This document shows positions 8,455 to 11,300 of a DNA stretch of 32,342 bases, piece after piece (the first letter of the stretch is position 1; every line of letters begins with the position of its first letter). Both the position numbers and the translations under genes were made by a program. The notes beneath the pieces are model-generated. The model was not told where the DNA came from and did not search any database. It saw only the letters and a list, made by a program, of their open reading frames with translations. The stretch is from Roseovarius sp. (GTDB lineage Bacteria > Pseudomonadota > Alphaproteobacteria > Rhodobacterales > Rhodobacteraceae): assembly GCF_018066915.1 (NCBI RefSeq), contig NZ_JAGPVV010000204.1:1-32342 (forward strand), in the 5' to 3' direction.

Positions 8455-9480
8455 CTACTTCAACGCTTCCCAAAAGAGCGCCAGATGCCGCTGGACAATC
8501 TCGCCATAGCGCCCGCTCTCGCGCAGCTTGGCAAGCCCCGCATTGAGCCGGTAGAGATGCGTCGTGCCGCGCCAATGGGTCTTGGAAATCACCGCAAAGA
8601 GCGCCTCACGCGAGAGCGGTTGATCGACCGGCACCACTTGCCCGCGCAGGCCCATGGCCACGATCTTGGCCGCGCCCTCGAACACATCGAGGCTGACGGC
8701 ATCGACCGCCCCCGCCATCAAGAGCGCAAAACACTCCTCGGGGCTGCCGGGCTGGGTCAGGCTGATCTTGCCTTGCGCTAACCAGCGCCGGTCCGCCCGG
8801 TCAAGATCATGGATAAACCGCCCCGCCGGACGGCAGAGCCGCTTGCCCAGAATATCCGCATCCTCAGTATAACGAAAATCGCTGTCGGCGCGCCGGAACA
8901 GCATCACCGGCAAATCCATCAAGGGCTCGGAAAAATGAAATTCAGTGCAGAGCGCCACGTCTGGCTCAAGGCTGCAATCGGGCTTGATCCAGGGAAAGCC
9001 CATGTCATAGCGCTTTTGCCCCAACAGCGGCTCCAGATGCTGACTGCGATCCGGCTCCCACACGATTTCATAGGGCACCGGCGACGGGCTCAGCTCTAAT
9101 GCGGCATTGACCAGTTCCGTAACCATGCCGCCCCCCGGCCAATCCTGATCGGCAAAGGGCACATCCCCCCCGGCGGTGAGCAGGGTCAGTTCCGCCCCGC
9201 TTTGGCGCAGCGGTGTGGCATCAGGCTCCGGGTTCTGTGCCGGACAGGGAATATAGATCTCGCTCCCTGCGACCAAGGCCTGAGCCTGCCCTGCCAGCCC
9301 GGCCTGATTGGCGTAATAGATCAAGGTCCATTGCTCGGCATCCTCGTAATGCGTCTCGGCAACCCCGGCCAGCGTATCGCCGGGCTGCACCCGGTAGGTC
9401 ACATCGCAGAGCGCCCGCGCCGCCCCCGGCAGCAGCAGGGTGGCCCCCAGAATGACGACGGCTGCGATCCGATCCTGCAT
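8455..9480 (-). CDS. LysM-domain plus periplasmic substrate-binding (SBP family 3-like) fusion
   Basis: Signal peptide; LysM (YRVQPGDTLAGVAETHYEDAEQWTLIYYAN...GSEIYIPC), then SBP-like region (ELTLLTAGGDVPFADQDWPGGGMVTELVNAAL...MGFPWIKPDC). Confidence 0.8.
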   Translation of the reverse strand: MQDRIAAVVILGATLLLPGAARALCDVTYRVQPGDTLAGVAETHYEDAEQWTLIYYANQAGLAGQAQALVAGSEIYIPCPAQNPEPDATPLRQSGAELTLLTAGGDVPFADQDWPGGGMVTELVNAALELSPSPVPYEIVWEPDRSQHLEPLLGQKRYDMGFPWIKPDCSLEPDVALCTEFHFSEPLMDLPVMLFRRADSDFRYTEDADILGKRLCRPAGRFIHDLDRADRRWLAQGKISLTQPGSPEECFALLMAGAVDAVSLDVFEGAAKIVAMGLRGQVVPVDQPLSREALFAVISKTHWRGTTHLYRLNAGLAKLRESGRYGEIVQRHLALFWEALK

Positions 9481-9484
9481 CCCC

Positions 9485-10567
9485 TCAGAACCCCGCCCAG
9501 ACGCGGCTCATATGCGCCTCGATGATTTGCTGATAGCGCCCATCCGCCTTGATTTCGGCCAGTCCCCGCTCGAACACCGCCAGAAACGCCGGGCCGTCGG
9601 GGTGCGACCGATGCACGACCATATGCGTGCCTTCGACCGAAATCGGCTGGCCGTCGGCCACGACCACGCGCGCCTCCAGCCCCAATTCCTTGATCTTGCC
9701 CCGTCCGAGGAATTCGTTGAGCACAACGCCATCCACCTCGCCTTCCACCAAGAGCCGCAGGCACTCAGCAGGGGAGCGCGGCGTCTTGAGCGTGATCACG
9801 CCCGTCTTGAGCCAGTTGCGCCCGCCCTGATCCAACATGAAGGTGGGATAGCCCGCAGGCCGGCACAGCGTCTTGCCTTGCATATCCGCGTCCGAGTGAA
9901 AGGCCATGGGCCGCGACCGATCGACAAAGAGCAGCATCAGCACTTCGAACATCGACCCGGAATAGAGCAGGTTAGCGCATTGATCGGTCTCGGGATCACG
10001 GGCGCAATCGGGCTTGAACCACGGAAACCCGATATCGAGGAGCGCATTGGACAAGAGCGGCTCTTGATGCGCAGACCAGTCATCGACCCAGTGAATCGCA
10101 AACCCCTGCGGCGGGTTCGTCGCCTGCATCGCCGCCTCTACTACCTCGGTCAGCATGCCGCCACCGGGCATCGCCTTGTCTGTGAAAGGCCAGAAATCGC
10201 CCCCCGTCAGGATGTTGATCTTGCGCCTCGTGGCGGCATTGCCGGGGGCCACGACCAGCGGCTTCGCGGCGGCAAGCGGTGCCTCGGGCGCGACCGTGCC
10301 ACCCGCGAGGCCCGTGGGCCGACCGTCGATACAGCGCAGCCGCAGGTTCATGCCCGCCCGCAAATTGTTGGGGTCTTCGCCGATCTGATCGAGATTGGCC
10401 GAATGGATCGCGGTCCACTTTCCCGCGTCCTGATAGAACCGATCCGCTATCAGCGTCAGGCTATCGCCGCCTTGCACCACATAGCTGCCGCCACAGCCCT
10501 GCGCCTGAGAGTGCCCGGCCACGACACCGGCCAGCAGCAACACCGCCCCACCAATAGCGTTCCTCAT
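9485..10567 (-). CDS. LysM-domain plus periplasmic substrate-binding fusion, paralogue of the 8455..9480 product
   Basis: Signal peptide; LysM (YVVQGGDSLTLIADRFYQDAGKWTAIHSANLDQIG...AGMNLRLRC); SBP-like (KINILTGGDFWPFTDKAMPGGGMLTEVVEAAM...DIGFPWFKPDC). 4-bp gap to the next gene. Confidence 0.8.
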   Translation of the reverse strand: MRNAIGGAVLLLAGVVAGHSQAQGCGGSYVVQGGDSLTLIADRFYQDAGKWTAIHSANLDQIGEDPNNLRAGMNLRLRCIDGRPTGLAGGTVAPEAPLAAAKPLVVAPGNAATRRKINILTGGDFWPFTDKAMPGGGMLTEVVEAAMQATNPPQGFAIHWVDDWSAHQEPLLSNALLDIGFPWFKPDCARDPETDQCANLLYSGSMFEVLMLLFVDRSRPMAFHSDADMQGKTLCRPAGYPTFMLDQGGRNWLKTGVITLKTPRSPAECLRLLVEGEVDGVVLNEFLGRGKIKELGLEARVVVADGQPISVEGTHMVVHRSHPDGPAFLAVFERGLAEIKADGRYQQIIEAHMSRVWAGF

Positions 10568-10655
10568 TAAACATTCCCCCAGATAATGGGGGCACTAAGG
10601 CCAATCCGGCAGATTCGGTCAAGTCGTTTCCGCCCCGCCACCCCGCTTTGCAGGC

Positions 10656-11300
10656 TCAGTGCGCGCCGCCCCGCCCGATCCGCGCGGCCAGTCGCAGCGC
10701 GTGGCTCGCATCCTGACTGACCGGCGGCAAAACAGGGTCATAGGCCGCCCGGATCAACGCCCCGATCTCGGGCCGCAGCACAACACCGCCCCCCGGCAGC
10801 ACGGCCAGCGCCGAGCGGTCCTGAAACGCCCGGTCCGACCATAAAACCATACTCTGCACGATCTGGCTCAGCGCCAATGTTTCAGCGGGCACCGCACTCA
10901 GATGCGCGTCCATCCGCAGGAACACAAAGCAGGCCCGAATGGCCCCCGCCGGATCAAAGCGGAAAATCCTGTATTGATTGGCTTCCGCCCCCTCCAGCTT
11001 TGCCACCAGCGGGCCAAGATCCGGGATCAGCCGATCCAGCCCCGGCACCTCCGGCAATTCCTGCCAGTCGCGAAAGAAAAAGAGCATGAGGTTCGCGCCC
11101 AGTTCCGGGTCGGTCTCGGCCATCTGATGCCCGGCCAAGGCCACCACCGCCTCGACCGCGCCCTTGACCACGCTCAATGTCGCGTCATCCGTGCCGAACA
11201 CCACCGGCACAATGGGCCGCCCCCAGCGGGCAAAGAGAAACTCCCCATCCGCACGCGTAAACAGCGCCGCAATCTCGTCAGGTGTCAGGGTGTCGCTCAT
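10656..11300 (-). CDS. Conserved-looking hypothetical protein
   Basis: MSDTLTPDEIAALFTRADGEFLFARWGRPIVPVVFGTDDATLSVVKG...; same strand as ruvB and the LysM-SBP genes; family not recognised. Start chosen at 11300; 11324 is also possible. Confidence 0.7.
   Translation of the reverse strand: MSDTLTPDEIAALFTRADGEFLFARWGRPIVPVVFGTDDATLSVVKGAVEAVVALAGHQMAETDPELGANLMLFFFRDWQELPEVPGLDRLIPDLGPLVAKLEGAEANQYRIFRFDPAGAIRACFVFLRMDAHLSAVPAETLALSQIVQSMVLWSDRAFQDRSALAVLPGGGVVLRPEIGALIRAAYDPVLPPVSQDASHALRLAARIGRGGAH

Follow-up and report, generated by a model that had tools for sequence, protein, structure and literature searches.

Tandem LysM–solute-binding-protein fusions with no permease alongside: candidate wall-bound receptors co-inherited with a membrane protein in Roseovarius

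Introduction

Two adjacent genes on a contig of Roseovarius sp. (NZ_JAGPVV010000204.1) raise the question of what a solute-binding protein (SBP) does when it carries a LysM domain and has no permease encoded beside it. A prediction made from the sequence had proposed that the two products are wall-anchored ligand binders or sensors rather than transport components. Here we examined the genes within the window (the whole stretch of DNA analysed, 32,342 nucleotides) and in related genomes.

Binding proteins of this type can serve functions other than uptake. The regulatory domain of the lytic transglycosylase MltF belongs to the SBP-3-like fold class. This N-terminal domain binds muropeptides and is reported to be switched by them (PMC10746161). 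In the GlnH-GlnX-PknG system of Corynebacterium and Mycobacterium, the SBP-3-type protein GlnH controls the Ser/Thr kinase PknG (PMC6069109, PMC9769921). The stimuli of bacterial Ser/Thr kinases, called outstanding in PMC6069109, and the sensing of wall state are open questions in the field.

Results

Both genes lie on the minus strand, which the original prediction had left unstated, with A upstream of B. The predicted coordinates and spacing of 4 bp were correct.

9485..10567, minus strand: gene A, secreted LysM-SBP3 protein of 360 aa, upstream tandem member, T1 clade (Pfam, AlphaFold model, fold search, tree)
8455..9480, minus strand: gene B, secreted LysM-SBP3 protein of 341 aa, downstream tandem member, T2 clade (Pfam, BLASTP, tree)
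10656..11300, minus strand: flanking gene of 214 aa, without a family match, that separates A from ruvB in Roseovarius

A and B are paralogues with 35% identity over their full length (BLASTP, E 3e-72). Among Roseovarius orthologues, dN/dS was 0.10-0.28 for A and B, indicating that both are maintained. Together with the A-B tandem order, which is kept in about 90 loci, this value led us to judge that the pair is not a chance arrangement: A and B are real genes under purifying selection. A perfect short hairpin, CCCCCATTATCTGGGGG, was also seen over the ribosome-binding region of gene A (window 10576-10592, minus strand).

The domain composition of each protein agreed with the prediction of a signal peptide, a LysM-like domain and an SBP-3-like domain, as did the shared (M/I)GFPW(I/F)KPDC motif.

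10502..10567, minus strand: predicted signal peptide of A, residues 1-22, MRNAIGGAVLLLAGVVAGHSQA, with a hydrophobic core
10331..10489, minus strand: LysM domain of A, residues 27-79, between C25 and C79 (Pfam, family profile, fold)
9488..10222, minus strand: SBP-3-type (PBP2 fold) domain of A, residues 116-360, with C188, C197, C235 and C269 (profile, fold)
10004..10033, minus strand: motif IGFPWFKPDC of A, residues 179-188
9412..9480, minus strand: predicted signal peptide of B, residues 1-23, MQDRIAAVVILGATLLLPGAARA, with a hydrophobic core
9244..9399, minus strand: LysM domain of B, residues 28-79 (Pfam, family consensus)
8458..9192, minus strand: SBP-3-type domain of B, residues 97-341, with C169, C178, C216 and C250 (Pfam, alignment)
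8974..9003, minus strand: motif MGFPWIKPDC of B, residues 160-169

Both N-termini start with positive charge, continue into a hydrophobic core and end in a putative cleavage region of the Ala-x-Ala type. The HMM search proposed with the original prediction matched many relatives at E<0.01 (LysM in 24/28 and SBP_bac_3 in 11/28), but A and B themselves stayed below the curated Pfam cut-offs. For LysM (PF01476; cut-off 20.9 bits), B gave E 0.0058 and A gave E 0.019 (17.0 and 15.3 bits). For SBP_bac_3 (PF00497; cut-off 26.4 bits), the window proteins gave E 0.024 and 0.025 (14.9 and 14.8 bits). The LysM consensus GDT/S-L..IA...Y...N.....I..G..L..P is present in the family, and the family profile matched LysM proteins of solved structure (Kbp, E 7e-13) as well as amino-acid SBPs (E 3e-11). 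An AlphaFold model of a LysM-SBP protein (mean pLDDT 84) resembled amino-acid SBPs in the PDB (Foldseek, E about 5e-14), corresponding to a PBP2 fold, and its LysM part superposed on viral LysM models. The family profiles and the predicted fold thus support a LysM plus SBP-3-type architecture for both A and B despite the sub-cut-off Pfam scores. No C-terminal transglycosylase domain was found in A or B by Pfam. In one relative (L078, G004:C400:279554-281368), a 669-aa frame carries extra LysM-like repeats before the SBP domain.

The several cysteines noted in the original prediction number six in A and six in B, and most LysM-SBP family members have exactly six. This count suggests three disulfides, which would be C25-C79 around the LysM domain, C188-C197 in lobe 1 and C235-C269 in lobe 2. 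Among 152 dereplicated relatives, C79, P127, P186, C188, C197, C235, C269 and D279 were essentially invariant, and C25, N58, D163, H167, W183, S203 and R236 nearly so (A numbering). The family profile also matched transferrins over ~30 residues (A residues 257-290, E about 1e-4); we did not adopt iron binding from this match, which covers ~30 residues of the common binding-protein fold.

Where SBP-3 proteins usually have their ligand loop, the family has a GFPWxKPDC...RC segment. In a profile alignment to an ancestral Arg/Gln-binding protein, the residue preceding C197 fell at the position of the carboxylate-binding Arg. By this alignment, the position is occupied by Q196 in A and by Leu in B, and by Arg in 65-84% of the family. 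As this Arg is absent from both window proteins, the pair may bind something other than amino acids, or nothing. The T1 and T2 clades have partly different conserved residues, and this divergence would be compatible with separate ligands for A and B, with a single ligand used in two roles, or with an obligate heteropair.

As predicted, no ABC permease or ATPase gene was detected by Pfam among the immediate neighbours of A and B in the window; these neighbours are apt and the gene for the 214-aa protein, which adjoins ruvB. Of 141 immediate neighbours in about 50 LysM-SBP loci, 3 matched ABC_tran. The ABC permease family BPD_transp_1 was not among the 25 most frequent families of these 141 neighbours and therefore matches at most 2 of them, so that no permease was consistently adjacent in relatives. 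We rejected a role as a transport component, as neither the window locus nor the loci of relatives contained a permease. The reading of A and B as free of a transport role is well supported across these loci, and for the other half of the original proposal, anchoring to the wall, peptidoglycan binding is inferred from the LysM domain.

We surveyed 385 genomes at class level and 399 at phylum level. In these genomes the LysM-SBP fusion was confined to Rhodobacteraceae, and elsewhere only LysM-less relatives were found. These LysM-less SBPs of other Alpha- and Gammaproteobacteria (L221-L236) are the nearest relatives of the SBP domain, and most share the second-lobe cysteine pair; they differ in having no LysM domain, in a PWKRGY-type motif instead of NDWxAH, and in the absence of the first-lobe cysteine pair. 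Of the 148 gene runs examined, 106 were pairs, 37 were singles and 5 were triplets. Phylogenetically, A (T1, support 70) and B (T2, support 96) are products of one old duplication, and the kinase-linked pair described below arose from another (K1, support 98; K2, inside a clade with support 99), K1 and K2 being separate clades.

The pair is often located with ruvCAB and the 214-aa gene on one side and ybgC-tolQ on the other. In pair-less genomes, the flanking gene abuts apt (L269, L281) or adjoins thpR/ybgC-tolQ. A relic of B was found in L275, and frameshifted pairs were found in L279 and L280, both in genomes that still have M, the membrane protein described below. Roseovarius has thus gained or lost the pair repeatedly, leaving relics. 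Many Roseovarius genomes lack the pair or have broken copies, so it is dispensable. The pair-less junctions, the relic and the frameshifted copies indicate that the function of A and B is conditional, not essential.

Several other candidates were set aside. The 214-aa flanking gene is retained in pair-less genomes and missing beside most pairs outside Roseovarius, and was classed as a ruvB neighbour. A link to tol-pal or apt is positional only, since pair-less genomes close up cleanly. A phage origin was rejected because PHROGs and viral fold matches concerned only LysM or generic SBP folds. A and B had no PADLOC match that would indicate a defence system, and what matched in other genera, kinase and dynamin, did so generically.

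In Leisingera, Phaeobacter and their relatives, the gene directly upstream of A-B encodes M, a small protein whose features are a single transmembrane helix and a ~50-aa conserved domain (consensus ...LYAMVLTALAQGQSEAYIDQLVNDAYEKGEVTVPASLITADGRVDTAALLALL). M lies on the same strand as A-B in 34/34 cis cases, nearly all in genera other than Roseovarius, and its domain occurs in no other position among the genes of pair-bearing loci. It is built from an N-terminal anchor, a Pro/Ala-rich linker and the conserved ~50-residue domain, with a LysM domain of its own in Roseovarius.

G000:C313:5616-6239: M in the window's genome, with a C-terminal LysM domain at 35.7 bits, above the Pfam cut-off

This M has almost no cytoplasmic part, and the genes preceding it are, as we take them from their sequences, accD-like and folC-like. 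Using an M that lacks a LysM domain as the query against 50 Roseovarius genomes, we detected M in 18/20 pair-bearing and 0/30 pair-less genomes (Fisher p 1e-11); the two pair-bearing genomes in which this search did not detect M were G182 and G198. M is mostly unlinked to the pair in Roseovarius, although G169 (L060) has it in cis. Beyond Roseovarius and the cis cases, the part of the genomes that was covered yielded a single further example of M in trans (G100, L300).

Mapped on a tree built from RuvB and the flanking protein, the pair shows 7 changes of state. M moved with the pair in a mean of 3.8/4 independent contrasts on supported branches, and never in the opposite direction. The sign test on 4 contrasts gave p 0.125. 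Because four contrasts cannot reach 0.05, the co-inheritance of M with the pair is strong but not conclusive.

The linked kinase for which the original prediction proposed a synteny survey was found in other genera. A protein kinase lies beside a LysM-SBP pair or triplet in 12 loci (Pfam E 1e-28 to 1e-32 for the kinases scanned), and genes for FHA, PP2C and dynamin-like GTPases are frequently present as well. Each of the 12 combines its kinase domain with a single transmembrane helix and a conserved C-terminal domain of ~200 aa that is predicted to be periplasmic. A model of this domain (pLDDT 91) resembles the PDZ regions of HtrA/DegP and RseP. Among 246 Rhodobacteraceae genomes, 20 had a strong match to the domain (E<=1e-27), and in all 20 LysM-SBP genes lay within about 5 kb of it. 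By contrast, the window's genome yielded no homologue of the receptor kinase and no Hanks-type kinase in a PF00069 search in which control genomes were positive. A kinase partner was excluded there on both searches; it is M that tracks the pair in Roseovarius.

A conserved kinase cassette in other Rhodobacteraceae (L085:40-8717, L079, L194, L196, L217) comprises dynamin-like GTPases, the transmembrane Ser/Thr kinase with its PDZ-like periplasmic domain, FHA and PP2C phosphatase genes, followed by LysM-SBP. In a third recurring context, LysM-SBP directly follows two genes, one encoding an SPFH (Band 7) protein and the other a membrane protein resembling NfeD (L069, L077, L078, L082, L198, L201, L202).

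Discussion

The reading we favour, and to which we give about an even chance, is that A and B work as ligand receptors bound to the wall, with no permease, and act through M, or in other lineages through a kinase. A and B would be exported as a matched pair serving no transporter, and the N-terminal LysM domain would hold each at the wall by binding peptidoglycan. The disulfide-stabilised SBP-3 clamp would then close on a small ligand, perhaps amino-acid-like or wall-derived, and the closed clamp would act on M, a periplasmic partner anchored in the inner membrane, by way of a presumed contact. Together, A, B and M would make up a unit for sensing or assembly that is tethered to the wall and depends on the ligand. 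The scarcity of cytoplasmic sequence in M makes the route of a signal across the membrane obscure and counts against sensing by this unit. The missing carboxylate Arg, the dispensability of the pair, the small number of contrasts and the two pair-bearing genomes in which M was not detected weigh against this reading too. Two counter-examples also show that gene neighbourhood can occur without interaction between an SBP and a receptor (PMC11113362).

The nearest precedent for the kinase-linked relatives is GlnH-GlnX-PknG, in which a periplasmic amino-acid-type binding protein is thought to signal via a membrane protein rather than to serve uptake. However, GlnH is a single protein, whereas the LysM-SBP proteins are two LysM fusions acting as a pair; moreover, the window's genome has no Hanks-type kinase, and its putative partner M is unrelated and is not a kinase. 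To our knowledge, GlnH carries no LysM domain. MltF likewise couples an SBP-3-like domain to the wall, but its catalytic domain lies in the same chain, whereas A and B have none and would use LysM for wall contact. The amino-acid SBPs of ABC transporters (SBP_bac_3; PDB 4oen, 3vv5) share the two-lobed PBP2 fold with A and B, which differ from them in having no permease, in the added LysM domain and disulfides, in the GFPWxKPDC...RC loop and in the loss of the carboxylate Arg. LysM proteins of the Kbp/YgaU type provide the closest solved LysM sequences, but Kbp is a potassium-binding protein that lacks an SBP domain.

Other explanations were weighed against this one. The SBP domain may no longer bind solute, the clamp serving protein contacts instead; A, B and M would then tether the wall to the membrane or act as a factor in envelope shape or division. 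The canonical carboxylate-binding Arg is indeed missing from both window proteins, LysM domains on A, B and M would suit a tether, and the pair often sits between ruvCAB and ybgC-tolQ. A LysM protein also tops the vesicle membrane proteins of Dinoroseobacter shibae (PMC7901474), although it is only a possible member of the LysM-SBP family. We nevertheless consider such a scaffold unlikely, given that the SBP signature residues D163, H167, W183, R236, SDP and D279 are among the best conserved, with A and B keeping clade-specific ones, that a receptor kinase beside the same proteins in other lineages favours sensing, and that the pair is frequently lost, which core tethers are not. It is decidedly improbable that the pair and M are passengers with no joint function, their co-occurrence reflecting shared ancestry or joint transfer. 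Their patchy distribution, frequent loss and the few independent contrasts would allow it, but M and the pair occupy mostly separate chromosomal places in Roseovarius and yet are adjacent in 34 loci, and both the 18/2/0/30 association and purifying selection speak against it.

SBPs can operate with unlinked permeases, and the SBP-3 fold of A and B is near that of amino-acid SBPs. They might accordingly supply a solute to a transporter whose genes lie at another locus, while LysM holds them close to the wall. We think this very doubtful: no permease is adjacent in the window or in related loci, an SBP that has to shuttle would be impeded by LysM anchoring it to the wall, and tight co-inheritance with M and the kinase linkage in relatives would be unaccounted for. 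Least probable of all, in our assessment, is an enzyme derived from the SBP fold, like cyclohexadienyl dehydratase, that acts on a periplasmic or wall-derived substrate. Ancestral dehydratase/SBP proteins were among the profile and fold-search matches and the SBP domain has invariant Asp, His and Arg residues, but ordinary amino-acid SBPs matched at least as well, we identified no catalytic motif, and the pairing with membrane proteins would be left unexplained.

Returning to the receptor reading, the original observation is confirmed and its interpretation partly supported. The separately duplicated pair found with a transmembrane kinase in other Rhodobacteraceae points to the LysM-SBP pair as an input module that can be exchanged between systems. 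We extend this, tentatively and with more doubt than belief, to a wall-anchored receptor module that in one lineage feeds M, a non-kinase often with its own LysM, and in another a transmembrane Ser/Thr kinase via its PDZ-like domain together with FHA, PP2C and dynamin-like proteins, a small molecule at the wall controlling both. SBP-mediated sensing is already known; what is new here is the membrane partner M and the kinase-linked sister systems. The LysM-SBP proteins are soluble, secreted and small, so they can be purified and screened for ligands, and a partner can be named for each lineage (M or the receptor kinase). The proposal offers a functional hypothesis for LysM-SBP and M, two widespread uncurated families of abundant marine bacteria.

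No curated family for the LysM-SBP protein as a whole was present in Pfam, NCBIfam, PHROGs or PADLOC, and we found no published description of the family in the literature searched. Among the membrane proteins of D. shibae outer-membrane vesicles, the most abundant is Dshi_2138 (PMC7901474), a periplasmic LysM protein of uncharacterised function that may or may not belong to the LysM-SBP family. A Leisingera-like M-A-B locus was also present on a contig labelled Nocardioides marinus, an actinobacterium (L164), and probably reflects contamination or mislabelling.
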